64,000 bases of DNA from Deltaproteobacteria bacterium (GTDB lineage: Bacteria; Myxococcota; XYA12-FULL-58-9). Positions 2,720 through 59,442 of this stretch are shown one piece after another. The translations under genes were made by a program, and so were the position numbers. The DNA lies in assembly GCA_016218825.1 (NCBI GenBank), contig JACRCV010000019.1:1-64000 (forward strand), in the 5' to 3' direction. Position 1 is the first letter of the stretch. Every line of letters starts with the position of its first letter. Below the pieces are notes generated by a model. That model saw nothing but the letters and a program-made list of their open reading frames with translations. It had not been told where the DNA came from and made no database searches.

Positions 2720-2947
2720 ATGGTCGCCAAGTTGTTTCCCGCCAACGTTCATGTCATCGAGCGCGTGCTTCGTTTTGCCATCGGCGCCGGCGCCCTGAGC
2801 CTGGTGTTCGTGGGGCCGCAGAGCCTGTGGGGCCTCGTCGGCATCGTGCCGCTCGCCACCGCCTTGCTCGGCAGCTGTCCCGTGTACACCCTATTTGGGT
2901 TTACGACATGTCCGGCGAAACTGAAGAAAGGGACGATCGTGGTCTGA
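2720..2947 (+). CDS. DUF2892 (YgaP-type) small membrane protein
   Basis: 75 residues. The start is the ATG at 2720, which has GGAGG five bases upstream; a TTG four codons earlier would overlap that site. The layout is typical of DUF2892: an N-terminal N-x-H-x-x-ER segment (NVHVIERVLRFAIG), two hydrophobic helices (about 14-31 and 35-50) and the closing CPVYTLFGFTTC motif. These domains occur alone or fused to rhodaneses. The last 40 nt overlap the start of the ECF sigma gene, so the two are probably translationally coupled. The biochemical function of the family is not established; the two conserved Cys suggest a sulfur or redox link (inference). Confidence 0.85.
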   Translation: MVAKLFPANVHVIERVLRFAIGAGALSLVFVGPQSLWGLVGIVPLATALLGSCPVYTLFGFTTCPAKLKKGTIVV

Positions 2948-3492
2948 TTCGGCGAGTCGCCGAGGGTGACCGTGGTGCGTTCGACGCCCTGGTCGAGAAG
3001 CATCAGGCCTCGGTGTTGCGCTTCGCGACCGCGGTCACCGGCTCGGCCGCCACCGCCGAGGACGTCATGCAGGAGACCTTTCTCGCCGCTTACCGGCATG
3101 CGGGCGACTTTCGCGGTGACGCATCGGTCAAGAGCTGGCTCATGACCATCACCTTCCGCCAGGCCCTCAAGAGCGGCCGCAAGCGCAGCGGCGAGCCCAA
3201 GGAGATGGAGCCGCTCGACGCCCTCGGGGCGGCTGCGGGCTGGGGCGCCGAGGAGGATCCGGCCGCGGCCCTCGATCGACACGAAGGCCGGGCGATGCTC
3301 CGGACCGCGATGGAGGGGCTGAGCGAAGAGGACCGTACCATGCTCGTGCTGCGCGATCTGGAAGGGCTGTCGGGCAAAGAGGTGGCCCAGGCCCTCGACT
3401 TGTCGCTCGCCGCGGTCAAGAGTCGTCTGCACCGCTCGCGTCTGCACCTGGCTGCGGCGCTCAGGCGGCTGGGGTACCAGCATGGCGCATGA
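2908..3492 (+). CDS. ECF-type RNA polymerase sigma factor
   Basis: 194 residues from ATG 2908 (MSGETEERDD), overlapping the DUF2892 gene by 40 nt. Region 2 has the usual acidic/aromatic pattern (AFDALVEKHQ, AEDVMQETFLAAYRH). Region 4 has the LRDLEGLSGKEVAQAL and LAAVKSRLHRSR helix-turn-helix typical of ECF sigma-70 factors. It should direct RNA polymerase to its own promoter class in response to a signal passed through the anti-sigma encoded just downstream (11-nt overlap). No autoregulatory promoter motif could be assigned upstream of 2720. Target genes are unknown. Confidence 0.92.
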   Translation: MSGETEERDDRGLIRRVAEGDRGAFDALVEKHQASVLRFATAVTGSAATAEDVMQETFLAAYRHAGDFRGDASVKSWLMTITFRQALKSGRKRSGEPKEMEPLDALGAAAGWGAEEDPAAALDRHEGRAMLRTAMEGLSEEDRTMLVLRDLEGLSGKEVAQALDLSLAAVKSRLHRSRLHLAAALRRLGYQHGA

Positions 3493-3742
3493 TCGTGACG
3501 TGGCCGGCATCCGCTGCCTCGAGGTCCTGGAGCGGCTCTCCGCCTATCTCGATCACGAGCTTTGCCCCGAGGACGTGGCGCGCATCGAAGCTCACCTCGC
3601 GGGCTGTGACTGGTGCGCCAAGTTCGGCGCCCGCTTCCAGGGTGTCGTCCGCGAGCTCAAGCGCGCGCTCTCCGCCGCCGAGCCCGTCGACCAGGAGGCC
3701 GTGCGGCGGCTGAGATCGCGGCTCAAGTCCGAGCTCGGCTGA
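3482..3742 (+). CDS. Zinc-finger anti-sigma factor (ZAS/zf-HC2 type)
   Basis: 86 residues, overlapping the sigma gene by 11 nt. It contains the anti-sigma zinc motif H-x3-C-x2-C (HLAGCDWC, near residue 38), preceded by the typical CLEVLERLSAYLDHEL helix. There is no transmembrane segment, so it is a soluble cytoplasmic anti-sigma of the RsrA/ChrR-like length class. Such factors hold ECF sigma in an inactive complex and release it on oxidation of the zinc-thiol site or metal exchange; that is family knowledge. Charged helices follow the finger (RRLRSRLKSELG). Confidence 0.88.
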   Translation: MAHDRDVAGIRCLEVLERLSAYLDHELCPEDVARIEAHLAGCDWCAKFGARFQGVVRELKRALSAAEPVDQEAVRRLRSRLKSELG

Positions 3743-3777
3743 GCGGCCGGTGGGCGCCGCAGGTCGGGCGTTGGCGC

Positions 3778-4485
3778 TCAGAACGCGGCGTTGGCCTTGG
3801 TCGGTTCCACGAAGAAGGTGGCGACGACGATGAGTCGGAGGAGCGCCTTGCCGTGTGGCAGCCTCGGCTCGTCGGCGGTCTTGACGTGTACCGAGCTCGT
3901 GCCGCGCATGGCGAACTCCTTGACGTCGTCTTGGAGCTGGGTGTCGAAGTAGGTCTCGCCGCCCCGTTCCCAGGTGAAGGGGAGGTCGCCGACGAAGCCC
4001 GCGGGCGCCCCCGGCATCCGCCCGATGGTGAACCATGCCTGCCGGTCGTCCGGGTTGGCGTCCTGGGCATCCGCCAACTGCACCGCCATGTCCGGGATCG
4101 GGATCGAGAGAGTGCTGGCGTCGATCCTGAGCACGAGCTCGTTGATCTCGATCCGCCGCACGATTTGACTGCGGTCGTTGATCTGCTGGTACTTGTCGTG
4201 GTCGGGGGCGCTGGGGTCGGGCGTCAGGTCCACCGCCACGGGATCGGTCGTCATGGGCAGATCGTGCTCGATGTCCGGGAGCGCGTCGGGCCAGAGCTCC
4301 GGCAAGCCCGGGCCGGTGGCCGGGAGCAGTCCCACGGCCGCGAGCTCGGCGGCGAGCACCGCGAGCGTCTGATCGAGGCCAAGCTCGAAGGTGAACTCGT
4401 CGATCCGCACCTCCAACGGCACGCCCCCGCCGCAGGCGGCGACGACGAGCGGGAGAAGGACGGCGGTCTGTTTGCGCGCGGCCAT
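3778..4485 (-). CDS. Lipoprotein of unknown function, last gene of the barrel-lipase operon
   Basis: 235 residues with a lipobox (LVVAAC, Cys at about residue 18) and AGGAG upstream of ATG 4485. It starts nine nt after the stop of the lipase gene, so the two are co-transcribed. The body has many Asp/Glu and alternating hydrophobics (VRIDEFTFELG, IEINELVLRIDASTLSIPIPDMAVQL), which suggests a beta-rich domain. I recognise no family. It may be an accessory or chaperone for the lipase or the barrel encoded upstream, but that rests on position alone. It converges with the anti-sigma gene with 35 nt between the stop codons. Confidence 0.75.
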   Translation of the reverse strand: MAARKQTAVLLPLVVAACGGGVPLEVRIDEFTFELGLDQTLAVLAAELAAVGLLPATGPGLPELWPDALPDIEHDLPMTTDPVAVDLTPDPSAPDHDKYQQINDRSQIVRRIEINELVLRIDASTLSIPIPDMAVQLADAQDANPDDRQAWFTIGRMPGAPAGFVGDLPFTWERGGETYFDTQLQDDVKEFAMRGTSSVHVKTADEPRLPHGKALLRLIVVATFFVEPTKANAAF

Positions 4486-4494
4486 CGTAGTCTC

Positions 4495-7044
4495 CTAGCG
4501 CCTGATCTCGGGCGCGGCGCCGACCGCCGGGTTCGTGCCGTTCGCGGTGGCGAAGAAGTGCTCCAGGGTGGTGCGCGCCGCCGGGTGGTTGAACATGACG
4601 AAGTGGCCGTCGTACTCGGCGTCGGGCGTGAACTGTGCGACGCCCGCCGTGACTGCGTCCGGGGCGCCGGTCGGCAGGTTGCGCTTGGCGCCAGCGGTCT
4701 CGAGCACCGCGACGCCGTCGACCGGCACGTCCGGGGCGCCGCCCGGTGGCACGACGAGCGGCAGCCTCGCGGCGCGCATCAGCGCCTGTTGGGTCACGTC
4801 GGGCGCGAAGCTGTCGCCGACGCCGGCGACGTGGAGCACCGACAGCCGCGTCGGCGGGGATCCCCTAAGGGTCGGCTCGATGACAAAGCTGCGGGCGTAG
4901 TTGACGGCGTCGGTCGGCGCGAACAGCATGCTGAGGATCCCGAGCATGGGATGGACGCGGTTCTGCGAGCCGTCGGCGAAGATGGTGATCGCGACGATCG
5001 CCAGCTCCGGCGGCTGCCGCTTGTGCAGGATCGACAGCGACAGGTCGGCGCCGGCGCCGGAGAGGACCGCCGCCGCCACGTCGGGCTCCGCCGACAGGAA
5101 GGGGGGCGCGATCACCGTGCCCTGCGAGTGGCCGAGGAAGTAGACGCGGTTCGGGTTGAAGTGGAAGCTGCCGTTCGGCCCCGCCAGCGTGGCGGCGGGG
5201 TTCCTGACCAGGCGCACCAGGTGGAACAGATCGGCGGCGCCCTGGAGCACGTTGTCGCGCGCGGCCCGCGGGTTGAGCAGGTTAAAGAACAGCTGGCCGG
5301 CGTCGAAGAACCTGAGCGGGCGCGGCAAGGCCGCGATCACTGCCGGGAGCATGGGCGGCGCCTGCCTGAGGCCGTGCATGACGTTGTCGAAGCTCAGGAC
5401 CGCGTAGCCGCGGGCGGTAAGCTCTTCGGCGAGGCCCTCGTCGATGAAAGAGCGATAGCTGCCGCTCGTGCCATGCGCGTAGAGGATCACGGGGAAGCCG
5501 GTGGCCGGCGGCGCTACCTTGGGGACGGCGACGGCGAAGCAGAGCGTCTCGTCGCCCTGCTTTGCGGGCACCCCGGTGGCGTCGTAGACGAAGGCCCCGC
5601 CGTAGTCCGCCGTGGGATAGGGGCGGGTGCCCGCCTGGAACAGCGGGTTCTGGTAGGTGCCCTGGATCTCGTGGAAGGTCGCCGCCGGCGCCGTCGGCGA
5701 GCAGCCGCGCCGGCTCTCGGGCGCGGGCAAGCCGTCCCGACACGGCGCCGAGATCGTGGCGCTGGTGCAGACGACGCTGCCGCTGTCGAAGGTGGGCGCC
5801 GGCAGGGCATGCACCGCCTTGCGCAGGCGACCGGCGACGGCCGTGGGGTCGCCGGTGGTGAAGACGGCGGCGGCGGCGACCTTGGCCGCCTCGGCGGTCC
5901 GGCCGCTCAAGAAGGTGAGGAGCGGCTGCATCGCCGGCCGGCTCTGCGCGCCGATCATGAGCTCGGCGAAGTCGCGGTCGCGGATCGGAGCCTCGCCGCG
6001 AATGTCGCGGACGCCGGTCGTGACGATGGCAGCGTAGGTCGTGTGTGGCAGGAGCGGCTCGCCGTCTTTGGGCGCGATCCCGAGCCAGTTCTGGCAGATG
6101 TACATGCCGCTCTCGCGGCTCATGTTCAGCTGGACGGGGATGTGCCGGCCGTAGTCGTCGCCGGCGTCCGGGTCGATGTTGACGAGATAGACGTTCGGCG
6201 CGCCGCCCCGGGCGCAGAAGGGCGGCAGCGTCAGGTCGACCTGCGCCGGATAGACCGACCCCTCGTCGAGGCAGACCGACGCCGGGTCGACGATGTCCGA
6301 GAAGCGGAAGAACACCGGCTGCGTGAGGGCGAAGCCGGTCACGTCCTCTTCGACGGCGGCGAAGTAGGTGGCGCGGATGTCGACGCCGAGGATCGGGTCG
6401 TTCGGCGCCTCGTGGCCGCTGAGCGACACGTGGCCGCCGGTGACTCTCAGGTCGGTCGGGAAGGGCAGGCGGTCGAACTCGTAGGGGTCCGGCAGGGGGC
6501 CTTCGGGCGGCAGCTCGAAGTAGACCCGGAAGGCGCCGGCCTCCGCATCACTCAAGGCGCAGTTGGCACCGTCGAGATACGGCGGCCGCTCGCAGACGCC
6601 GTCGAAGTTGCAGATGAACGGCCGCTGGCAGTCGAAGATGCTGCCGCAGGCGTCGCCGAAGTCATGGGTGCCGTACGAGCCGTCGTCGGCGCCGCAGGTG
6701 CCGGTGATGCCGTTGCAGATGAGCGGCTCCTTGCACTGAATGGTGAGCGAGCAGCCCTGGCCGGCGTCGGAGAGCGGGCGGGCCGTACAGACCTCCTGGC
6801 GACCGCAGACGAGGGCGGGGGCGCAGTCGGCGTCCTCTTGGCAGGGGTCACCGGGCTGTGGGCCGGTCGCGAGGGGCGGGATCGGGGTGCAGACGCCGCT
6901 CAGACAGTCGAGGCCCGCCTGGCAGTCGGAGGCCTGTTTGCAGCTCTCCCCCTCGAGCTGGACCCCGATCAGGATTGGCGTTTGGCCCGTGCACGCGGTG
7001 GTGAGCCCGACGACGAGGACGAGGCGCAGGCGCAGCGAGATCAT
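4495..7044 (-). CDS. Large lipoprotein: Cys-rich repeats plus alpha/beta-hydrolase (lipase-like)
   Basis: 849 residues. Lipobox TTAC near residue 18. Residues 30-165 carry four Cys-rich units of the form DPCQEDADCAPALVCG...CT, a pattern common in secreted myxobacterial proteins. The middle resembles the N-terminal region of bacterial virulence-factor-type lipases (PYEFDRLPFPTDLR). The C-terminal half is an alpha/beta hydrolase: FPVILYAHGTSG (oxyanion-hole region), then the nucleophile elbow GHSQGT, and a late GHFVMFNHP His. An ester or lipid hydrolase on the cell surface is likely, with the substrate unknown. The ATG overlaps the TGA of the upstream barrel gene (ATGA), indicating translational coupling. 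Confidence 0.85.
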   Translation of the reverse strand: MISLRLRLVLVVGLTTACTGQTPILIGVQLEGESCKQASDCQAGLDCLSGVCTPIPPLATGPQPGDPCQEDADCAPALVCGRQEVCTARPLSDAGQGCSLTIQCKEPLICNGITGTCGADDGSYGTHDFGDACGSIFDCQRPFICNFDGVCERPPYLDGANCALSDAEAGAFRVYFELPPEGPLPDPYEFDRLPFPTDLRVTGGHVSLSGHEAPNDPILGVDIRATYFAAVEEDVTGFALTQPVFFRFSDIVDPASVCLDEGSVYPAQVDLTLPPFCARGGAPNVYLVNIDPDAGDDYGRHIPVQLNMSRESGMYICQNWLGIAPKDGEPLLPHTTYAAIVTTGVRDIRGEAPIRDRDFAELMIGAQSRPAMQPLLTFLSGRTAEAAKVAAAAVFTTGDPTAVAGRLRKAVHALPAPTFDSGSVVCTSATISAPCRDGLPAPESRRGCSPTAPAATFHEIQGTYQNPLFQAGTRPYPTADYGGAFVYDATGVPAKQGDETLCFAVAVPKVAPPATGFPVILYAHGTSGSYRSFIDEGLAEELTARGYAVLSFDNVMHGLRQAPPMLPAVIAALPRPLRFFDAGQLFFNLLNPRAARDNVLQGAADLFHLVRLVRNPAATLAGPNGSFHFNPNRVYFLGHSQGTVIAPPFLSAEPDVAAAVLSGAGADLSLSILHKRQPPELAIVAITIFADGSQNRVHPMLGILSMLFAPTDAVNYARSFVIEPTLRGSPPTRLSVLHVAGVGDSFAPDVTQQALMRAARLPLVVPPGGAPDVPVDGVAVLETAGAKRNLPTGAPDAVTAGVAQFTPDAEYDGHFVMFNHPAARTTLEHFFATANGTNPAVGAAPEIRR

Positions 7045-43136: not shown

Positions 43137-44579
43137 ATGGATCGGCGAGGGTTCATGTCAGGTGGCACCGCGGGTCTTGCACTACTCCTGGTAGGTAAGA
43201 AGATGCCTTGGGTCCTCGGCGACCCGGCCTACGCGGCCAAGCCGGTGCGGCGCAACACCATCGATTTCACGATCACCGACGCCCTCAAGGACATGGTCAC
43301 CCACAACTCGCTGAACACGGCGCAATGCTACTTCTGGGTATATAAGGAGGCGAGCTTCGCGGCGGACTGTCCCGCGCCGCTCATCTTCGCCACCTCCGGC
43401 GACACCATGTTCTTCAACATCACCAACGCCCTCACCGAGCCGCACGCGCTGTTCATCCCGGGGCCGCCAGGGCAGCCGCCGATGTTCGACAGCGGCCCGA
43501 TCGCGCCCGGACAGACGATCTCCCGGAAGGTGAAGGTCGGGCCGGCCGGCAGCTACCTGTATTACGACAACCTGAATGCGCCGGTGAACCGGATGATGGG
43601 CTTGCACGGCGCCCTCGTGGTCATGCCGCGCAAGGCCGCCCCCGGTCAGCGCTTCACGCCCTATGACAACCCCACGCCCGCGGTCCAGCGGCTCTTCAAC
43701 GAGCTCGGCACCGCGCATTGGCCGGGGCTCGCCTGGGAACAGGGCGACCCGAACCACGCGACCTTCGCGCCCCCCTTCCGGCAGTACATCTGGGTGCTCC
43801 ATCAACCCTCGTCGCACCTGTTCGCCGAGGTCGGGCAGTTCGCGCAGCAGAACCCCGGCCAGCTCTTCCCGGCGCAGAGCTTCATTGACGCGCTGCACAA
43901 CGAGGCGTTCGTCCCGGCCGGCACCTGGGGCGGGAGCCGCAAGTCCGACTACTTCACGATCAACGGGCAGTCGGGGCACTTCGCACACAACAACCCGTAT
44001 TTGTGCCCGAATCTGCGCGTCGGCGAGCCTTGCGTCATCCGCGTCTTGAACGCCGGCATGCAGATGCACTCCATCCACATCCACTGCAACCATCAGTACG
44101 TGCTCTCGTACGAGGGGCAGCAGCGGGACAACCTCTGGTGGGTGGATACCGCCAGCGCCCGACCCATGGGCGGCTTCGAGTGGCTGAACCCCTACATGCG
44201 CTCGCCGGACGTGCCCAACGTCCTCGGCATCGGCCGGGCCGACCTGTCGCCGGGCCTGCCGACCTTGGCGACGGACGGGCACCTCACGTGGCCGCCCACC
44301 GAAGAGCTCAACACCTTCATCCCGCCCGTAGGGACCATGGCCGGCGGGGTCGACATCTCGGTGCGACTGTCGCCGTTGTGCTTCCCGATGCACGACCACT
44401 GTGAGCCGTCGCAGACGGCCCAGGGTGGCAATTACAACTGCGGCATGATCTCCGGCATGAACATCACCGGCGACCGGACGCTCCCGGGCGGCGTCGTGAC
44501 CTTCCCGAACGAGGGTCACATCGGCCATGGCCCGATGCGGACCGGTCTGGCCGCACCTGAGATGAAGGGGCCGGCGTAA
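43137..44579 (+). CDS. Split multicopper oxidase, subunit A1 (Tat-exported, second-domain half)
   Basis: 480 residues from ATG 43137 (GGAGGG seven nt upstream). Tat-type signal with Arg3-Arg4 (MDRRGFMSGG), hydrophobic stretch and cleavage near AYA. Two cupredoxin domains. In the first, the usual HxH motifs are lost: NALTEPHALFI keeps one His, and the YHSH position reads GSYLYYDNLN before MMGLHGALVV. The second keeps trinuclear-site motifs H311-SI-H314-I-H316 and H419-D-H421. The Cys of a canonical HCH is Asp420, so A1 cannot build a normal type 1 site. The missing half is present in B1 encoded 56 nt downstream, so A1 and B1 probably form one enzyme at their interface (inference). Confidence 0.88.
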   Translation: MDRRGFMSGGTAGLALLLVGKKMPWVLGDPAYAAKPVRRNTIDFTITDALKDMVTHNSLNTAQCYFWVYKEASFAADCPAPLIFATSGDTMFFNITNALTEPHALFIPGPPGQPPMFDSGPIAPGQTISRKVKVGPAGSYLYYDNLNAPVNRMMGLHGALVVMPRKAAPGQRFTPYDNPTPAVQRLFNELGTAHWPGLAWEQGDPNHATFAPPFRQYIWVLHQPSSHLFAEVGQFAQQNPGQLFPAQSFIDALHNEAFVPAGTWGGSRKSDYFTINGQSGHFAHNNPYLCPNLRVGEPCVIRVLNAGMQMHSIHIHCNHQYVLSYEGQQRDNLWWVDTASARPMGGFEWLNPYMRSPDVPNVLGIGRADLSPGLPTLATDGHLTWPPTEELNTFIPPVGTMAGGVDISVRLSPLCFPMHDHCEPSQTAQGGNYNCGMISGMNITGDRTLPGGVVTFPNEGHIGHGPMRTGLAAPEMKGPA

Positions 44580-44635: not shown

Positions 44636-45991
44636 ATGTCATTTTCGAACCCAGGTTTTCGCATCCCCCGCCAGTCGATCGTCGGCCACGAAGGCGAATG
44701 GGTCAAGATGTGGGATCCACCCACGGCGAGCCCGGCGACACCCGAGCTCGTGGCACCCACGAACCCGGTGCCGGCATTCATCGCCTCGCCGGCGTCCCTC
44801 GTCGCGGGGGCGACCAACGCCATCCCGAACACGGTCCAGCGCCGGTTGATGCACGGCCTGCCGCTGACCATGTGGGACGGCAAGTCCGTGACCTTCTTCG
44901 TCTTCAGCGATCCGGACATCCCCTCCACCTCGGGCGGGACGTTCCCGGCCCCCACCATCCGGGTGCCGCGCGGGGTGATCTTTCATGGCGCGACCTCGGC
45001 CGGCGGCCCGCCGCCGCACACCATCCATTGGCACGGCATGGAGCCGACGCCGATGAACGACGGGGTCGGTCACTGCTCCATGGAGATCGGCTCGTACACC
45101 TACCAGTTCCAGCCGAACTTCATCGGCACCTACTTCTACCATTGCCACCGCAACACGGTGCAGCACTTCGAGTTCGGGCTCTACGGCATGCTCCTGGTCG
45201 AGGCGCCGGACGCCTACGACCCGACCGACGGCAAGAACGTCGGCGGCTATCCGCGGCGGATCGCGGCCAACATCCCGCCGGCGCCCTTCCCCATCCAGAT
45301 CCCGGGGTTCGACTCGACGCCGGTCCACATCATCAACGCGGCCACCGGCAAGCCGTTCCCGCACGCCATGACCGTGCCCTACGACGTCGAGGCCTTGTGG
45401 GTGCTCGACGACCGCGACTCGGTCTGGAGCGATCTCGCGCCGAGCGCCTTTACCACTTTCCCGCGCCACGGCTCGCAGCCGGGCGTCAACGACCTCTTCC
45501 ACCTGAACGCGGGGGTCTCGGACTTCTTTGCCTTCAACGACTACAAACCGGACTACTTCTTCGTCTCGGGCGTCAACGTCCCGGGTGCCGTCGGCTCGCC
45601 CAATCCCGTGGCGATCCCCGGCAACATCGTGGTGCCGCCGGCTCTCAACAGCGGCGTCTCCGGGATGCAGGTCTCGATCAACGCCGCGGTGGGGCAGACC
45701 GTCCTGGTGCGTTGCCTGGATGCCGCCTACGCGTACGCCGAGATCACCTTCCCGATGGACGTCGTCATCATCGCGTTCGACGGTCGCGCCCTCGGCGTGC
45801 CGCCGTTCGGCAACTACAGCTCGGCCTACATCCTGCCCGCGAACACGCCGATCGAGCTCACCACCGCTCGGCGTTTCGACGCGCTCATGCGGCCGACCCA
45901 GGTCGGGAGCTTCTCGGCGCTCGCGAAGCTCCGCGACTACCGTACCGGCGGTGACCTCATCACGATCGAGATCCCGATCACCATCGTGTGA
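44636..45991 (+). CDS. Split multicopper oxidase, subunit B1 (first-domain half, no signal peptide)
   Basis: 451 residues; ATG 44636 with GAGG eight nt upstream. The N-terminus (MSFSNPGFRIPRQS) shows no export signal. First cupredoxin domain: H128-TI-H131-W-H133-G, then EPTPMNDGVG, and H169-C170-H171-x5-H177-FEFGL. This has all ligands for a type 1 site (His128, Cys170, His177) and four trinuclear-site His. In the second domain the motifs are gone: the HxxHxH position reads AYAYAEITF and the HCH position SFSALAKLRDY. This is the mirror image of A1. Likely co-exported with A1 through Tat (inference). Laccase-like substrates or metal ions are possible. Confidence 0.88.
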   Translation: MSFSNPGFRIPRQSIVGHEGEWVKMWDPPTASPATPELVAPTNPVPAFIASPASLVAGATNAIPNTVQRRLMHGLPLTMWDGKSVTFFVFSDPDIPSTSGGTFPAPTIRVPRGVIFHGATSAGGPPPHTIHWHGMEPTPMNDGVGHCSMEIGSYTYQFQPNFIGTYFYHCHRNTVQHFEFGLYGMLLVEAPDAYDPTDGKNVGGYPRRIAANIPPAPFPIQIPGFDSTPVHIINAATGKPFPHAMTVPYDVEALWVLDDRDSVWSDLAPSAFTTFPRHGSQPGVNDLFHLNAGVSDFFAFNDYKPDYFFVSGVNVPGAVGSPNPVAIPGNIVVPPALNSGVSGMQVSINAAVGQTVLVRCLDAAYAYAEITFPMDVVIIAFDGRALGVPPFGNYSSAYILPANTPIELTTARRFDALMRPTQVGSFSALAKLRDYRTGGDLITIEIPITIV

Positions 45992-45996
45992 CGGTC

Positions 45997-47319
45997 ATGA
46001 ATCGGCAACACCTTGTGTTGGGGGTGGCGCTGGCAACGGCCGCGGCCGCTTGCCGGAGCGACGAGACCGATCCACGACCGCCCACCGTGAGCCTGAGCCT
46101 CGGAGCCGTCGACGTGGCGGGAAGCCCGACCACGGCGGCGCTCCCGTTGAACCCCGCCACCGGCATGCTGGTCGTCGACTCGGAGAGCCCGTGTGCCGTC
46201 GTCATCACCGCGACGCCCAGTCCGGACACGCACGACCCGGTGCGCCTGCTTCACGAGGGCAGCGGCGACCCGAGCACCCTGGCGGTGTACTCGGACGTGC
46301 CGGTGCGGGACCCGTTGGCCGAGGTCATCTACAACCGCGGCGTCAACATCGCGCCGGCCTTCCACGCGCGTCCGGGGAGCGCCGGCGACGGCGCCGAGGT
46401 GATCGCGGTGCTCGTCGCCGTGCCGCAAGACGCCCTGACGGCGCTCGCGACCTTCACCGCCAGAGTGGCGGACGCGGCGGGGCTCGGCTCCGAGGTGGAG
46501 GAGACGACGGTCGAGCTGGCCACCCCCTTCCCGCCGGAGGCTCGCGGCACGCTCCAAGCAGCGCCGACGCCGGGCGCGGGCGCGCTCACCGGCGTCCTGT
46601 TGCCGCAGCGGCTCGTCGGCGGCCACAGCGTGCTCACTTCCCCGGCCACGCCCTTTGCCCTCACCGTCGAGGTGCTGCCGAACCCGCAGTCGGGCCTGAA
46701 GCTCGATCTGGTCGACGAGGCGACCGGGCGCGGCGATCCCGCGACCCTCCTCGTCACGGTCGACGTCGCGCTCGGGGACCCACGGCAGGGAGGCGTAGAC
46801 GCCGGCGAGAACCTGGCGCAGCGCTTCAACGCCGACGTCGCCCCGCTCGTCGACCCGGTGACCGGCGCCACGACCGTCGCTTTCGTGGCGGCGGCCGGCC
46901 TCGTGCCGCCGCCCGGCACCGCCACCTTCACCGTCCGAGTGGTCGACGTCGGCGGCCACCGTTCGCTGACCACCCGGGTCGCCCTGGACGTCTCGGCGGG
47001 CGCGTCGTTCTCCCGGGACGTGCAGCCGATCTTCACCGGCCTGTGCGCCCAATGCCACTTCTCGCCGTACGGGATGTCCCCCTCGCTCGCGCAAGGCACG
47101 AGCTACGCACAGATCGTCGGCGTCTTCGGCCAGCAGGTGGCGATGCCGATCGTTCAGCCGTTCACCCCGTCGCGGAGCTACCTCCTGCACAAGATCGCCG
47201 GGACCTTCGAGGACGTCGGCGGCGGCGGCGTGCGGATGCCGCGGTACTTGCCGCCGTTGAACGGCGTGGAGCTCGAGACCATCGAGGATTGGATCCTCTT
47301 GGGCGCGCCCAACGACTGA
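45997..47319 (+). CDS. Lipoprotein with C-terminal mono-haem c domain
   Basis: 440 residues. ATG 45997 follows the B1 stop by 5 nt; a GTG at 45988 overlaps that stop and is an alternative start. Lipobox TAAAAC. Residues ~35-340 are beta-rich, probably three or four Ig-like domains (TATPSPDTHDPVRLL, TFTARVADAAGLGSE, TFTVRVVDVGGHRSLTTRV), without a recognised family. The C-terminal ~100 residues are a cytochrome c: DVQPIFTGLCAQCHFSP, then YLLHKIAG, VRMPRYLPPLNGVELETIEDWI with a candidate Met ligand. As third gene of the A1-B1 operon it is a good candidate electron partner for the split oxidase, tethered by lipid (inference). Confidence 0.87.
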   Translation: MNRQHLVLGVALATAAAACRSDETDPRPPTVSLSLGAVDVAGSPTTAALPLNPATGMLVVDSESPCAVVITATPSPDTHDPVRLLHEGSGDPSTLAVYSDVPVRDPLAEVIYNRGVNIAPAFHARPGSAGDGAEVIAVLVAVPQDALTALATFTARVADAAGLGSEVEETTVELATPFPPEARGTLQAAPTPGAGALTGVLLPQRLVGGHSVLTSPATPFALTVEVLPNPQSGLKLDLVDEATGRGDPATLLVTVDVALGDPRQGGVDAGENLAQRFNADVAPLVDPVTGATTVAFVAAAGLVPPPGTATFTVRVVDVGGHRSLTTRVALDVSAGASFSRDVQPIFTGLCAQCHFSPYGMSPSLAQGTSYAQIVGVFGQQVAMPIVQPFTPSRSYLLHKIAGTFEDVGGGGVRMPRYLPPLNGVELETIEDWILLGAPND

Positions 47320-52560: not shown

Positions 52561-53766
52561 ATGCACGGCCATGACCTTCAATGGTGTATCTCGAGCAAAG
52601 AGTGGAGTCGGCGTGACGCGTTGACGCTCGGTGGCGTCGGGCTCGCGACCCTGTCGTTGCGCTCGGTCGCCTGCCACGCCGCTCTCGGCGGACCGCTCGA
52701 CCCCGAGCTGTCGATCGGCGAGGCGCTCGTCGAGATGATCGACGGGGAGCTGGTGTACGCCTGGGCGTTCGGCGACCCGCGGCGCGGCCCCAGTGTTCCC
52801 GGGCCGGTGCTCGAGGCGTTCGCCGGCCAGGAGCTGCAGGTCACCGTCACCAACACGCTGTCGACCCCGCACGCCTTCGCGGTCCTCGGCACACCGATCG
52901 CGACCAAACCGATCGCGCCCGGCGCCACCGAGACCCTGACCTTCCGCGCCCCGCCGGCCGGGACCTACCTCTACGTCGACCCGCTCTCGGCGCCGGTGAA
53001 CCGACTCATGGGGCTGCACGGGGCGATGGTGGTTCTGCCGGAGGAGCGAGCGGGCACGCCCTACAGCGCCCCGACACCCGCCGTCGCCAGGCTCTTCGGC
53101 GACCTCGGGACGACCGAGCACTTCCCCGGCGAGCCGTGGCAGAGCGACCGCTCGCGGGTGTGGCTGTTCGGCTCGGTCGACTTGCGCCTCCCCGACTCCA
53201 TCAGCCGCGGTGCGACGTTCGACATGAACGAGTTCCTGCCCGGCTACTTCACCATCAACGGCCTCTCCGGCGCGTTCGCCTCGCATGACCCCGAGACGAT
53301 CCCCAAGGGCAGACTCGGCGAGCCCCACCTCGTCCGCATCCTGAACGCCGGCATGGCCGCCCACTCGCCCCACTTCCACGCCAACCACGTCTACGTCCTG
53401 GCCAGGAACAACGTCGTCCAGGAGAACGTCGTCCTCGTCGACTCGTTCACGGTCGGACCGACCGAGCGGGTCGACGTGCTCCTGCCGTTCATGCGACCGC
53501 CCGACGTCGCCGGCGATCCGCAGACCCCGCTGCGTGACCTCGTCAAGCACGAGCTCGGGATGAGGCTGGGCACGCCGCAACGTCCGCTCGCCTACCCGAT
53601 GCACTGCCACATGGAGATGTCGCAGACCGCCGCCGGCGGCAACTACCCCCAGGGGCTCGTGACCCACTGGGAAATCACCGGCGACCTGGACGGTGTGGAT
53701 TTCCCGGAATCGGAGCTGGAGAGCCAGTCCACGGGTGGAGACCGCCATGACCATTCCAGTCATTAG
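52561..53766 (+). CDS. Split multicopper oxidase, subunit A2 (Tat-exported, second-domain half)
   Basis: 401 residues; ATG 52561 after GGGGAGGTG. Twin Arg17-Arg18 in SRRDALTLGG followed by a hydrophobic stretch gives a Tat signal. First cupredoxin domain degenerate as in A1: NTLSTPHAFAVLG, GTYLYVDPLSAPVNRLMGLHG. Second domain: H268-SP-H271-F-H273-ANH and H348-C349-H350-MEMSQTAAGGNY. Unlike A1 the Cys of HCH is kept, but no His stands where a type 1 ligand is expected, so a normal type 1 site in A2 is doubtful. Trinuclear-site His are intact. Overlaps the B2 gene by 20 nt, implying coupled synthesis in a fixed ratio. The tail is His/Asp-rich (GGDRHDHSSH). Confidence 0.88.
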   Translation: MHGHDLQWCISSKEWSRRDALTLGGVGLATLSLRSVACHAALGGPLDPELSIGEALVEMIDGELVYAWAFGDPRRGPSVPGPVLEAFAGQELQVTVTNTLSTPHAFAVLGTPIATKPIAPGATETLTFRAPPAGTYLYVDPLSAPVNRLMGLHGAMVVLPEERAGTPYSAPTPAVARLFGDLGTTEHFPGEPWQSDRSRVWLFGSVDLRLPDSISRGATFDMNEFLPGYFTINGLSGAFASHDPETIPKGRLGEPHLVRILNAGMAAHSPHFHANHVYVLARNNVVQENVVLVDSFTVGPTERVDVLLPFMRPPDVAGDPQTPLRDLVKHELGMRLGTPQRPLAYPMHCHMEMSQTAAGGNYPQGLVTHWEITGDLDGVDFPESELESQSTGGDRHDHSSH

Positions 53767-54829
53767 CCGCATGCCGATGCCCACCGAGGAGTCGGCGGCC
53801 TTCTTCAAGCACGTCTGCCCGCCGACCTTCGCCGGCGACAACCCCGACCCGGTAGAGCCGACGGTACGCATCGCCCGGGACCTGGTCGTCGACTTCGCGC
53901 TCGCCCTGCCGGAAGGCGACAGCGTGCCGATGTGGATCATCGAGGACCCGGAGGACGCGAGGCTCGGTCGCCAGTTTCCCTCCAAGCTCATCCGCCTCAG
54001 GGAAGGCGACGTCGTCCATGCGAAGGTAGGCGCCAAGAAGAACACCCACACGATTCATTGGCACGGCATCGAGCCCACGCCGATGAACGACGGGGTGGGC
54101 AAGCACTCCTTCGAGGTCGGCGCGAGCTTCGTCTATCAGTTCTGCGCGCGCCAGGCCGGCACCTACTTCTACCACTGTCACAAGAACACGCCGCTGCACT
54201 TCGAGATGGGCCTCTACGGCCTGCTCATCGTCGATCCGCCGGAGGGGCAAGGCGTCGTGACGCGCTTGGCGCCCGAGCAGGGTCACCGGGAGCACTACGA
54301 CGTCGAGGCCTTCTGGGTGCCGGACGAGATCGACCGACGCTGGCACGAGCTCGGCCACGAGGCCTTCATGCAGAAGTGTGACGAGGCCGACCCGGTGCGC
54401 CGGGACGACTTCAGCCACGGCGGCATCCTGAACGATTTCCGGCCCGACGTCTTCCTGGTGACCGGCGTGCCGGCCGCCAGGCGCGACCCGAAGATCGTCG
54501 ATCCCCGCGTCGCCGTCTCGGCGCACGCCGGCCAGACCATTCTCCTGCGGGTCCTCAACGCCGGTTACACCGTGCAGCGGTTCACGCTCGACCTCGACGC
54601 CGAGGTCATCGCCATGGACGGCCGGCCGCTGGGAGTGCCACCCTACGGCGTGTACTCCTCCCCGTTCACGCTGCCGGCCAGGACGCCGTTCCAGCTGACC
54701 TCGGCCATGCGCTGGGAGCTCCTGCTCAAGCCGACCGTCCCCGGCACCTACCCGGCGCAGGTGGAGTACTTCCACTGGGTCACCGGCAAGAGGCTGGCGA
54801 CGGTGAGGACCCAGATCAAGGTCCTGTGA
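53747..54829 (+). CDS. Split multicopper oxidase, subunit B2 (first-domain half, no signal peptide)
   Basis: 360 residues; ATG 53747, GGAG six nt upstream, inside the end of the A2 gene. No export signal (MTIPVISRMPMPTEES). First cupredoxin domain: H101-TI-H104-W-H106-G, EPTPMNDGVG, H143-C144-H145-x5-H151-FEMGL, giving a full type 1 set and four trinuclear-site His. Second domain lacks motifs: NAGYTVQRFTLDLDAEVIAMDG-type strand without His (positions ~277-298) and GTYPAQVEYFHW where HCH would be. Closely parallels B1, and is shorter by ~90 residues. Needs A2 to complete the copper cluster (inference) and probably travels with it through Tat. Confidence 0.88.
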   Translation: MTIPVISRMPMPTEESAAFFKHVCPPTFAGDNPDPVEPTVRIARDLVVDFALALPEGDSVPMWIIEDPEDARLGRQFPSKLIRLREGDVVHAKVGAKKNTHTIHWHGIEPTPMNDGVGKHSFEVGASFVYQFCARQAGTYFYHCHKNTPLHFEMGLYGLLIVDPPEGQGVVTRLAPEQGHREHYDVEAFWVPDEIDRRWHELGHEAFMQKCDEADPVRRDDFSHGGILNDFRPDVFLVTGVPAARRDPKIVDPRVAVSAHAGQTILLRVLNAGYTVQRFTLDLDAEVIAMDGRPLGVPPYGVYSSPFTLPARTPFQLTSAMRWELLLKPTVPGTYPAQVEYFHWVTGKRLATVRTQIKVL

Positions 54830-54937: not shown

Positions 54938-57040
54938 ATGGTCACTTCAAGAACACTGGTCTCGATCCTGGTTGCCGGCCTGCTGGGCGCGGGGCCCCTC
55001 GCCTGTAACGACGATGATGATGGTCAAGGGCAGCCCGCCGGCTCGCTCGACCTCCGGATCACCGGCACCGGCTTCGCGCCGCACAACGGCGAGGTGATGA
55101 GCCTGGCCCTGACGACCACCGCCGGCCAAGTGCTGACCCGCGGCGCGGCGCTGGTTGCCGATGGCGGCTTCGCCTTCACCTTCCCCGGCAGCCTGGAGCG
55201 CGGCCTTGGCTACCGCCTCGACTACTACACCGATCATGACCACGACGGCGTCTGCACGACTCCGGTCCTGGCCGGCGATCACGGCTGGACCGCGACGGTG
55301 CCGACGGTTACGGACGCGGTGACGCAGACGCTCACGCACAACGTCATCTTCGGCGCCGGCGTCTGCGCCAGCTTCCCCACCCACGCCCTGACCTTCTCCG
55401 GGACGTTCGCGCCGCACGCCGGCCGGACCTTCTATGCCGCCCTGGTGCGCGAGCTCGATGGCTTCCCGGTCGCGACCACCAGCATGCTCATCCCCGCAGG
55501 CGGGGCCGTGTCGCTGCTGTTTGCCGCCCGGCTGCAGGACGGCCTGAGCTATCATCTCGACTACTTCGTGGACGCCAACGCCAACGCCGCCTGCGAGACG
55601 CCGGCGTTGACCGCGGATCAGGGCTGGCGAATCGCCGTCCCGACCGTGAGCGGCGACGTGACGCTCAGCCGCTCGGAGGACACGACTTTCGAGCCGTCGG
55701 TCTGCGCCTCCTTCCCGGTCAACGGCGGTCGCGGCACCTTCGTCGCCGTCGGGACGATGAAGAAGGGCAGCATCATCATCAACGGCGTGCGCTTTGACGA
55801 CAGCGCCGCGGACATCACCGTGGACGACGTGCCCCATCAGGACGCCGCCGCGCTCGAGGACGGCATGCAGGTCACCGTCCGTGGCAGCGTCGACGACAAC
55901 GGCATCGATGGCGTCGCCGACACGGTCGAGGTGGAGAACCAGGTGCGCGGCGTCATCACCTCCCTGGTCTTGCCCGACGGCTTCATGGTGATGGGCAAGA
56001 CGGTCGTCGTCGACGGCATCACGGTGTTCGCCAACGTCGTAGACTTCGCCGGCCTCGCCGTCGGTCAGGACGTGGAGGTCCATGGCGAGGAGGACTTGGC
56101 CGGCGTGATCCGCGCCAGCCGCGTCGAGGTGGTCACCGGGGCCGGCCTCGCCGACGAGCTGCGCGGCGTCGTCGCCGGCCTCGACGGCACCGCGAAGACC
56201 TTCACCCTCGGCGCGCTGTCGGTCAACTACGCCGGCGCCGTCATCCTGCCCGCGGACTCGACCCTCGCCGACGGCCAGCTCGTCGAGGCGCACGGGGCCG
56301 TGCAGACCGGGGTCTTGGTCGCCACCCGGATCGATGTCGAGAACCTCGAGGACGACCGGCTCGATCCGGATAACGGCGACGACGTGCACCTCGAGGGCTT
56401 CGTCAGCGGCTTCACCGCCCACCCCGGCGCCTTCACGGTCGGCGAGCAAGCGGTCGTCACCACGGCGACGACGCGGTTCACGGGCGGCATTCCGACCGAT
56501 CTCGCCAATGACGTCAAGGTCGAGGCCGAGGGTGCCATCAGCGCCGGGGTGCTCACCGCGTACAAGATCGAGTTCAAGGACAGCCTGCGGCTCGAAGCCA
56601 ACCTCGACGCGGTCGACGCCGGCGCGCGCGCCCTCACCATCATGGGCAAGACCGTCGTGCTCGGCAGCACCACCGAGCTCTCGGGCGTCGCCGCCGTCGA
56701 GAACCTGACGGTGGGCGGTGGCGTCCGCGTGCGTGGCTTCCTCAACAACGACGGCCTCACCCTGTCGGCGACCCGGGTCGACGCGCAGAGCAATCCGGTC
56801 GCCGCCGATCGCCTGATCCTCCAGGGGAAGGTGACCGGCAGCGACGCGGTGGCCAAGACGATCGTCGTGGTCGGCATGACGCTCGACGCGTCGGGGGCCG
56901 GGGTGCAGTTCCGGAGCGAGGAGGACGCGGCCATGACCGCCGCGGAGTTCTTCGCCGCGATCACCGGCACGAGCATCGTCAAGGGACGCGGCACCCTCGC
57001 CGGCGCGACCCTCACCGTCGACCAGCTCGAGTTCGAGTAG
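54938..57040 (+). CDS. Lipoprotein with two N-terminal ~115-aa repeats and a DUF5666 region
   Basis: 700 residues from ATG 54938 (GAGGGGG six nt upstream). Lipobox GPLAC, Cys23, then an Asp run. Residues ~30-150 and ~150-265 are two copies of the repeat also found at 2-352 (FAPHNGEVMSLAL / FAPHAGRTFYAAL; GVCASFP / SVCASFP). Residues ~268-700 are DUF5666-type units (GTMKKGSIIINGVRFDDSAA, VEVHGEEDLAGVIRASRVEV, VEAEGAISAGVLTAYKIEFK), ending DQLEFE as in the gene at 20485. Surface protein of unknown role. It lies 108 nt after B2 on the same strand, so it might be transcribed with the oxidase pair. Confidence 0.85.
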   Translation: MVTSRTLVSILVAGLLGAGPLACNDDDDGQGQPAGSLDLRITGTGFAPHNGEVMSLALTTTAGQVLTRGAALVADGGFAFTFPGSLERGLGYRLDYYTDHDHDGVCTTPVLAGDHGWTATVPTVTDAVTQTLTHNVIFGAGVCASFPTHALTFSGTFAPHAGRTFYAALVRELDGFPVATTSMLIPAGGAVSLLFAARLQDGLSYHLDYFVDANANAACETPALTADQGWRIAVPTVSGDVTLSRSEDTTFEPSVCASFPVNGGRGTFVAVGTMKKGSIIINGVRFDDSAADITVDDVPHQDAAALEDGMQVTVRGSVDDNGIDGVADTVEVENQVRGVITSLVLPDGFMVMGKTVVVDGITVFANVVDFAGLAVGQDVEVHGEEDLAGVIRASRVEVVTGAGLADELRGVVAGLDGTAKTFTLGALSVNYAGAVILPADSTLADGQLVEAHGAVQTGVLVATRIDVENLEDDRLDPDNGDDVHLEGFVSGFTAHPGAFTVGEQAVVTTATTRFTGGIPTDLANDVKVEAEGAISAGVLTAYKIEFKDSLRLEANLDAVDAGARALTIMGKTVVLGSTTELSGVAAVENLTVGGGVRVRGFLNNDGLTLSATRVDAQSNPVAADRLILQGKVTGSDAVAKTIVVVGMTLDASGAGVQFRSEEDAAMTAAEFFAAITGTSIVKGRGTLAGATLTVDQLEFE

Positions 57041-57924: not shown

Positions 57925-59442
57925 TCACAGACTGGTCTGAAGCTCGATCTCCTCGGCGGTGAGGACCTCACCGACCAGGCTCTCGGGCCCGGCGCCCCGG
58001 GCCTTGACCAGGGTCTTGTTGATCTCGATGTCCGCGAGGCGCGCCGGCGTCGCGGTGCCGTCGCCGGTGCCGCTCTGGTTCGCCTCGACCGCGCTCACCC
58101 TGGCCGAGCCGGTCGCCACCGTGAGGCCGAGCATGGTCAAGGTGCCGGCCACCTCGTCCTTGGCGCTCACCGTCGACTCGACGAAGATCCGCGAGTCGTC
58201 CACGCTCTCGACGCGGGTCGCCAGGATGTCGCTGCCGTTTTGCGCCAGCCGCCCGCGGATCTTCACCGCGCCGCCGAGCGCTGCCAGGTCGAGGGTGCTG
58301 CCGCTCTCGCCCCGGAGCTCGGTCATGGCGTCGACGAGGATGGTCGAGCCCAACAGCTCGAACGAGCCTTCGTGCGCGCCGATCGCCGCGAGCGCCGTCA
58401 CCGGACCCTGCAGGCGCAAGAACTCGCGCAGGGAGACCCGACGGGCCACGAGGATACCGTCGGCGCTGAGCGAGCCTTTGGCCTCGACCTTCACACCGGG
58501 CAGGATCTCGGTGGCCAAGCCGCCGACGAACACGGTCATGGCGTCGGTCGTGACCGACTGACCGGCGACGACGAAGGCGCTGGCATCGCCACTCGTCACC
58601 AGGCCCTCGACCTCGAGCTCGGCGAAGTGCTCGTCCTCGCGCTCGTGCTCGTCCTCGCGCCCGATGTGCTCGTCCTCGAGCTCGATGCGGGAAGCGACGA
58701 GGCTCTCGCCCTCGGGGGCGGTCCGCGCCTTGATCTCGACGAATGAGCCTTCGGCGATGCCTGCCGGCAGGGTCGCGCCCTCGGCGAGCGTGACGTGATA
58801 GAACGGGGCGCCGTCGATGGTCATGAGCAGGTCGAAGGCCGCCGCGGGCTCGATCGAGAGGCCGGCCACGTAGCCCTTGATCTCGAGCTCGAACTCGGCC
58901 TCGTCTTCGGGCGCGGGGGTGTCGTCGATGCGGCTGGCGCGCACCCAGCCGCTGTCGTCGGGCTCGCCGAATACGCGCACCGGCGTGCCGACCGGGACCA
59001 CGGACAGGTCGCCCAGGCCGGCCGAGACCACCGTGGCTCGGGAAAGCTGTACCGGGTGGTTGCCGACGTAGACCACGTCGACGCCGTGACCGGTGACTCG
59101 CCCGCGCACGGTGTGGGCCACGCGGACGCTCTCGGCCACGAGGCCGTTCACGCCCGGGGTGCCGGCGGCGACCGCCATCATGCCGAGCTCTACCGCCTCG
59201 ACGATGGCCAGATGCCCGTCGATCTCGACCACGGCACCCGACGTGTCAATGACGGTACCGGCGATCGTCAGCCTCACCTTGCTGGTCACCGCGCCGCGCA
59301 CGACCGACAGGGGTGCGATCCCCGGGGCCGACGGCTCGGCTTCGACCGTCTTCTCGTCGCTCGGTGCCGTGCCGCACGCCGCGAGCACGACGACCAGGAT
59401 CGCTACGCTCAAGAGGTTCATTTGGATCGAAGTCGCGTTCAT
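57925..59442 (-). CDS. DUF5666-type lipoprotein with EDEH metal-binding-like loop
   Basis: 505 residues; ATG 59442 preceded by AAGGAG. Lipobox VVLAAC. Beta-rich repeats of the DUF5666 kind: VRVFGEPDDSGWVRASRI, VEIKARTAPEGESLVASRIE, VEAKGSLSADGILVARRVSL, VKIRGRLAQNGSDILATRVE. Mid-protein (~250-275) is a charged loop with three EDEH copies in EDEHIGREDEHEREDEHFAE. Its acidic/His spacing suggests binding of divalent metal (inference). Third DUF5666 protein of the window. It has its own terminator downstream and a 151-nt gap upstream to the RCC1 gene, so it is probably a separate transcription unit. Confidence 0.83.
   Translation of the reverse strand: MNATSIQMNLLSVAILVVVLAACGTAPSDEKTVEAEPSAPGIAPLSVVRGAVTSKVRLTIAGTVIDTSGAVVEIDGHLAIVEAVELGMMAVAAGTPGVNGLVAESVRVAHTVRGRVTGHGVDVVYVGNHPVQLSRATVVSAGLGDLSVVPVGTPVRVFGEPDDSGWVRASRIDDTPAPEDEAEFELEIKGYVAGLSIEPAAAFDLLMTIDGAPFYHVTLAEGATLPAGIAEGSFVEIKARTAPEGESLVASRIELEDEHIGREDEHEREDEHFAELEVEGLVTSGDASAFVVAGQSVTTDAMTVFVGGLATEILPGVKVEAKGSLSADGILVARRVSLREFLRLQGPVTALAAIGAHEGSFELLGSTILVDAMTELRGESGSTLDLAALGGAVKIRGRLAQNGSDILATRVESVDDSRIFVESTVSAKDEVAGTLTMLGLTVATGSARVSAVEANQSGTGDGTATPARLADIEINKTLVKARGAGPESLVGEVLTAEEIELQTSL

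Follow-up and report, generated by a model that had tools for sequence, protein, structure and literature searches.

The ancestry of six-domain oxidases such as ceruloplasmin is generally traced to two-domain oxidases. Living intermediates, in which the subunits of an oligomer have turned different, are absent from open-licence accounts of oxidase evolution. The two-domain oxidases are described as homotrimers in which residues of two protomers bind the trinuclear cluster (TNC), and they are classed by the location of the T1 site, which in type C lies in the N-terminal domain (PMC13151041). Type C enzymes, such as 3g5w from Nitrosomonas europaea and the metagenomic laccase 2zwn, have two cupredoxin domains per chain and form the TNC from domain 1 of one subunit and domain 2 of another; their subunits are identical and are encoded by one gene. 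Six-domain MnxG/MofA-type oxidases and ceruloplasmin also contain several cupredoxin domains, some of them copper-free, around one surviving TNC. The MnxG/MofA type is a single six-domain polypeptide with the T1 site in domain 2 (PMC3600357). Heterodimeric fungal laccases (POXA3/NLAC) are copper oxidases of two chains, a large one that holds the whole copper site and a small accessory protein (PMC10741624).

Here we describe two neighbouring gene pairs, A1-B1 and A2-B2, within the window, that is, the whole stretch of 64,000 nucleotides that was analysed. Each pair, in our view, likely encodes a multicopper oxidase that is an obligate assembly of two chains and is related to the type C two-domain oxidases. 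The pairs share with type C the two cupredoxin domains per chain, the N-terminal T1 site and, as proposed here, a TNC formed between domains of different subunits, but they consist of two diverged genes, with half a site in each product and two copper-free domains. With the six-domain enzymes they have in common several cupredoxin domains, one surviving TNC and copper-free domains, although they are not one polypeptide and their T1 site is in domain 1 of B, which is not the equivalent of domain 2 of MnxG. Unlike POXA3/NLAC, neither chain would hold the complete copper site.

No earlier description of a divided multicopper oxidase was found in the open-licence literature, paywalled papers and preprints being outside the search, and we provisionally regard the A-B pairs as a previously undescribed variant of multicopper oxidase. 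They may also represent a new architectural class, in which two (A-B) or three (B'-A'-C') distinct two-domain chains would share one copper centre and be exported by Tat hitchhiking. Such a class, hetero-oligomeric, would stand between the homotrimeric two-domain enzymes and the six-domain oxidases made of one chain (MnxG, ceruloplasmin); we regard the whole reading as an even question. The A-B pairs and their three-gene relatives resemble the missing intermediate, in which losing complementary copper ligands has locked the duplicated subunits together, and culturable hosts (Geomonas, Citrifermentans bremense, Pelotalea, Skermanella and Sphingomonas) make the idea testable.

Methods

Contigs were scanned with two B-chain peptides (TYFYHCH and [..]HTIHW), yielding 80 loci with 79 readable A-B pairs; with those of the window, 81 pairs were aligned. 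Pairing was tested by A and B profile searches of 12 whole genomes reached through the loci. Trees of the A and B chains were computed for 74 pairs in quick IQ-TREE runs. A2 and B2 were modelled as single chains with AlphaFold2 from 40-sequence alignments of window and related-locus proteins, and the models were compared with known structures using Foldseek and VIA-align.

Gene organization and copper motifs in the window

The A1-B1 pair lies 6.6 kb upstream of A2-B2 (Table 1), and the two pairs are 42% (A1/A2) and 41% (B1/B2) identical in alignment. The coordinates, frames and motif residues that the initial annotation gave for A2 and B2, as well as the 20-nt overlap of the two genes, proved exact on re-reading. 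The A2 protein starts with the twin-arginine sequence SRRDALTLGG and carries the motifs H268-SP-H271-F-H273 and H348-C-H350. Its domain 1 has no copper ligands, while domain 2 has four TNC histidines (H271, H273, H348 and H350) and lacks a complete T1 site. The translated B2 sequence contains H101-TI-H104-W-H106 and H143-C-H145-x5-H151-FEMGL, so that its domain 1 has a T1 site (H101, C144, H151 and axial L156) together with the TNC histidines H104, H106, H143 and H145; domain 2 is without copper ligands, and the protein is without a signal peptide. Both pairs had been described as having the same A-then-B order and reciprocal motif pattern, which we confirm here and find again in 79 homologous pairs elsewhere.

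Table 1. Genes of the two pairs and their neighbours in the window
Feature	Position	Strand	Remarks
A1 chain (type 1)	43137-44579	+	Tat motif MDRRGFM; H-S-I-H-I-H and H-D-H
B1 chain (type 1)	44636-45991	+	HTIHWHG; HCH-x5-H-FEFGL; no signal peptide
Apparent lipoprotein, one CxxCH (CAQCH)	45997-47319	+	Begins 5 nt after B1; no Pfam match
A2 chain, two-domain cupredoxin protein	52561-53766	+	ATG start; 401 aa; stop-free frame
B2 chain, two-domain cupredoxin protein	53747-54829	+	ATG start, GGTGGAG upstream; 360 aa; stop-free frame
DUF5666-repeat apparent lipoprotein downstream of B2	54938-57040	+	ORF open from 54830

A1, B1, A2 and B2 all match the Pfam model Cu-oxidase_3 (multicopper-oxidase N-terminal domain) above its cut-off, and by these cupredoxin domains, and for A2 and B2 by matching folds, they belong to the multicopper oxidase superfamily. 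Apart from these four, the window's genome has a single Cu-oxidase_3 match, to an unrelated oxidase encoded on a different contig. With NCBIfam, none of the four window proteins reaches the cut-off of any model, and the NirK models score 17-45 bits against a cut-off of 296. NirK has a T1 site and a single T2 site without a His-Cys-His bridge, whereas HCH is present in all B chains and each pair has eight TNC histidines.

Complementary ligand loss

The initial annotation held the reciprocal half-site pattern to be stable and selected, and the same complementary conservation was indeed seen in 81 pairs. Every A chain that covers these positions has H271, H273, H348 and H350 (A2 numbering). The seven T1/TNC ligands of the B chains (H101, H104, H106, H143, C144, H145 and H151) are likewise invariant wherever covered, with the qualification that residues within the scan peptides (HTIHW, YHCH) were partly preselected, a bias that touches neither B H151 nor any A residue. 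Neither HxxHxH nor HCH occurs in domain 1 of any A chain aligned, where H104 is kept in 67 of 74 chains, the T1-Cys position is Asp or Glu in all 74 and the T1-His position is Arg in 73. Conversely, domain 2 of the B chains as a family keeps none of its ligands, and HxxHxH is found there in just one of 74. Eight TNC histidines and a T1 site are thus present only when A and B are combined. On these sequence grounds the two chains together are predicted to restore one normal oxidase site, and they are probably functional only as a joined pair.

H104, D140 and R148 of A2 belong to a nearly invariant His-Asp-Arg set that replaces the lost T1 site of domain 1 and is possibly a structural salt bridge.

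A2 retains the Cys of its HCH motif (H348-C-H350) at the position where A1 has Asp (H-D-H). This difference had been read as two stages of loss; the difference itself is real, but the reading is too simple. The pairs fall into two types. At the T1-Cys position in domain 2, all 43 type 1 A chains have Asp, while the residue in type 2 is Cys in 24, Ser in eight, Asp in four and Gly in two. The position of the second T1 His in the same domain is already Thr in nearly all A chains. Because the Cys position of type 2 has undergone at least five changes on the A tree as well as on the B tree, we read this Cys as a labile remnant and not as a fixed intermediate stage. All type 1 B chains have Leu at the axial T1 position, and those of type 2 have either Leu or Met there; the axial Leu suggests a T1 site of high potential.

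Fold and origin of the two chains

A2 (AlphaFold2 model m67ee28dcc56a, pLDDT 82.6) and B2 (model m7a52f804f2e9, pLDDT 84.4) are each predicted to be a complete two-domain cupredoxin protein. The best structural matches of both are the type C two-domain oxidases 3g5w and 2zwn, with Z of about 25-28; A2 aligns to 3g5w over 269 residues (Z 27.6) and B2 to 2zwn over 256 residues (Z 25.1), in agreement with the two cupredoxin domains per chain of type C. Neither A nor B, however, combines a T1 site in the N-terminal domain with both TNC halves in one chain, as type C does. Chain lengths, models and motif positions also set the proteins apart from three-domain laccases, which have three cupredoxin domains in one chain and ligands in domains 1 and 3. 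They likewise depart from the MnxG type, a six-domain chain with the TNC between domains 2 and 3 and T1 in domain 2, in having T1 in domain 1 of B.

The alignment of the A-family with the B-family profile is colinear and takes in both domains (264 columns, E 1e-18). Because the models are full two-domain structures and the profiles are colinear, A and B appear to be paralogues from one two-domain ancestor and not halves of a cut gene. The term "split" used at first for this oxidase gene is therefore misleading: an oxidase gene cut in two is rejected by the colinearity over both domains, and duplication with complementary loss takes its place. The initial annotation was right, in turn, that the divided state is no sequencing or frameshift artefact. 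There are 81 pairs and every chain is a full two-domain protein, so a frameshift or assembly error is rejected as well.

Distribution, pairing and export

The 79 additional pairs come from Nitrospirota, Thermodesulfobacteriota, Chloroflexota, Planctomycetota, Myxococcota, Pseudomonadota, Poribacteria and the archaeon Methanoperedens, phylum labels being those of the sequence records and many loci being metagenome-assembled. Hosts include anaerobes or metal and nitrogen cyclers such as Geomonas, Citrifermentans, Methanoperedens and Brocadia. In all 79 pairs A comes first and B follows on the same strand, and no fused A-B chain was found among the loci. The median gap is 37 nt and only seven of the 79 pairs overlap; the 20-nt overlap of A2 and B2 is not conserved. 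With overlaps so exceptional, the suggestion that the overlap indicates a fixed stoichiometry had to be abandoned. A divergent A-B-like pair on a plasmid of the actinobacterium Arthrobacter sp. FW305-BF8 (L158:4538-6885) has genes overlapping by about 76 nt.

Eight of the 12 whole genomes contain exactly one A and one adjacent full B (one of these, Brocadia, also gave a weak unrelated oxidase match), and the other four, Skermanella and three metagenome-assembled genomes, contain several adjacent pairs. No orphan full-length A or B was found by the profile searches of the 12 genomes. An unusual expansion to seven full A-B pairs was seen in the Skermanella aerolata genome (G200; loci L139, L140 and L145). 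In an Indioceanicola record the A chain is annotated as 'hypothetical protein', and public annotation there misses half of the proposed enzyme.

A twin-arginine motif is present near the start of all 75 full-length A chains, typically as RRDFLK followed by a hydrophobic stretch. Among the B chains 74 of 75 have no convincing signal, the exception being one arguable signal-like sequence (L152), and the intergenic space before B is often too short for a signal peptide. A twin-arginine peptide on one subunit only is the arrangement of a Tat-exported heteromer, and because of it B is probably exported bound to A. It is established elsewhere that a Tat signal on one partner can carry a folded complex across (PMC4273604, PMC10924467). 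Tat hitchhiker complexes such as E. coli PaoABC likewise have a signal peptide on one subunit only, but they are not copper oxidases, and co-export has been demonstrated for them whereas we infer it for A-B (PMC4273604). By this analogy, the signal on A alone offers independent support for a stable A-B complex that would form before export.

History of the pairs

The split between type 1 and type 2 has 100% support in the A tree as well as in the B tree, and the two trees share 32 of 71 splits, compared with a mean of 0.17 after label shuffling. The correlation of path distances between them is 0.89 for the whole set, 0.45 within type 1 and 0.74 within type 2, values that 0 of 2000 permutations reach. 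These results uphold the proposal that the pairs diverged as units. The congruence of A and B trees that had been put forward as its check is nevertheless incomplete, with 11 conflicting pairs of well-supported splits, which may reflect local recombination, partner exchange or tree error.

Pair 1 of the window is type 1 and pair 2 is type 2. Because they stand on opposite sides of the fully supported split, they appear to have diverged long ago and not to result from a recent tandem duplication. Several other assemblies likewise contain both types. At one locus (L125:4539-8900) a type 1 A gene directly follows a type 2 pair, so that both types lie side by side. The 194 other genomes of the host's phylum gave domain-level matches only, with no A- or B-level homologue; for this reason horizontal acquisition of the window pairs is likely and inheritance within the phylum is disfavoured.

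A related cluster with reversed gene order, B'-A'-C', recurs in the host's phylum (L161, positions 2911-6397, L162, L163, L164 and L166-L172). A' is matched by the A profile with E 2e-24 and B' by the B profile with E 1e-22, and A' and B' carry the same complementary half-sites as A and B. The cluster differs from A-B also in its third chain: C' is a two-domain homologue that lacks ligands at the HxxHxH position in nine of nine aligned copies, its HxH region being not reliably alignable. With this composition, the three products may form a heterotrimer that has six domains and a single copper centre. The three-gene cluster is also present in Burkholderiales (L175, L176), where close homologues of A' (about 62% identity) lie on large replicons of Paraburkholderia and Cupriavidus metallidurans CH34; the annotated Paraburkholderia record names each of the three genes 'hypothetical protein'.

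Proposed enzyme and alternative readings

We propose a two-chain oxidase because the ligands are complementary in 81 pairs and have been lost from opposite domains, the folds are those of type C, the A and B profiles are colinear, pairing is strict, only A has a signal and the A and B trees agree. An ancestral two-domain gene would have been duplicated, after which the copper ligands disappeared from domain 1 in A and from domain 2 in B, the losses being visible in the sequences. Domain 2 of A would pack on domain 1 of B across an interface like that between the subunits of homotrimeric two-domain oxidases, and four histidines from each chain would bind the trinuclear cluster there. The T1 copper of B would pass electrons to this cluster through the His-Cys-His bridge, and O2 would be reduced to water, as the intact ligand set implies. 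The folded complex would be exported by the twin-arginine peptide of A, with B as a signal-less passenger. Its stoichiometry could be AB, A2B, AB2 or larger (numerals counting chains), and the foremost candidate electron donors are a c-type cytochrome and a metal ion.

Some observations sit less easily with this proposal. A 1:1 complex misfits the three-fold ring of two-domain chains unless there is a third member, and no third chain to complete a trimer was found near the pairs, in the window's genome or, beyond A and B genes, among the 12 other genomes, those with a single pair included. The T1 site is confined to B, which might serve by itself as an electron carrier. Also, with many nominal anaerobes among the hosts, the main substrate may be something other than O2.

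This last point, together with metal- or nitrogen-cycling hosts and the di-haem CCP/MauG genes downstream of several pairs, is what favours a complex that forms and binds four coppers in a role other than classical oxidase turnover, such as O2 scavenging in anaerobes, nitrogen-oxide chemistry, or copper storage or sensing. We think such a role unlikely in view of the full eight-histidine TNC and His-Cys-His bridge in A and B. The combination is the signature of O2-reducing multicopper oxidases, and copper nitrite reductases are without it.

It is improbable, further, that A and B arose by fission of a longer four- or six-domain chain like MnxG or ceruloplasmin. The A-then-B order would place the TNC between 'domain 2' and 'domain 3', as in the bacterial six-domain oxidases, but T1 would fall in 'domain 3' (B domain 1) and not in domain 2 as it does there (PMC3600357). 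The reversed order of B'-A'-C', the lack of a fused chain among the loci and the fact that the A2 and B2 models fit two-domain oxidases best also argue against it. That the chains act separately, B as a T1 copper electron carrier and A as a non-catalytic scaffold or copper binder, is very improbable: B does have a complete T1 site and AlphaFold folds each chain confidently alone, but the four TNC histidines invariant in each chain despite ligand loss in opposite domains, the strict pairing and the signal on A only would all be left unexplained.

Neighbouring genes

The neighbouring genes and the extensions of B point tentatively to a redox function of the proposed two-chain oxidase at the cell surface or in the periplasm, with haem partners. 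Judged from its position next to B1, the apparent lipoprotein with one CxxCH motif may exchange electrons with pair 1. In other genomes, type 1 B chains frequently have C-terminal extensions, one of them a carboxypeptidase-regulatory-like domain, and at locus L082 DUF5666 repeats are fused to the C-terminus of the B chain. In the window, the protein encoded at 57925-59442 on the reverse strand resembles by eye the DUF5666-repeat protein downstream of B2. The di-haem CCP/MauG-family proteins encoded downstream of pairs at other loci (L093:10345-13473, L106:9811-13002, L120:7230-9539 and L151:6931-9024) in some cases have S-layer or Ig-like domains.
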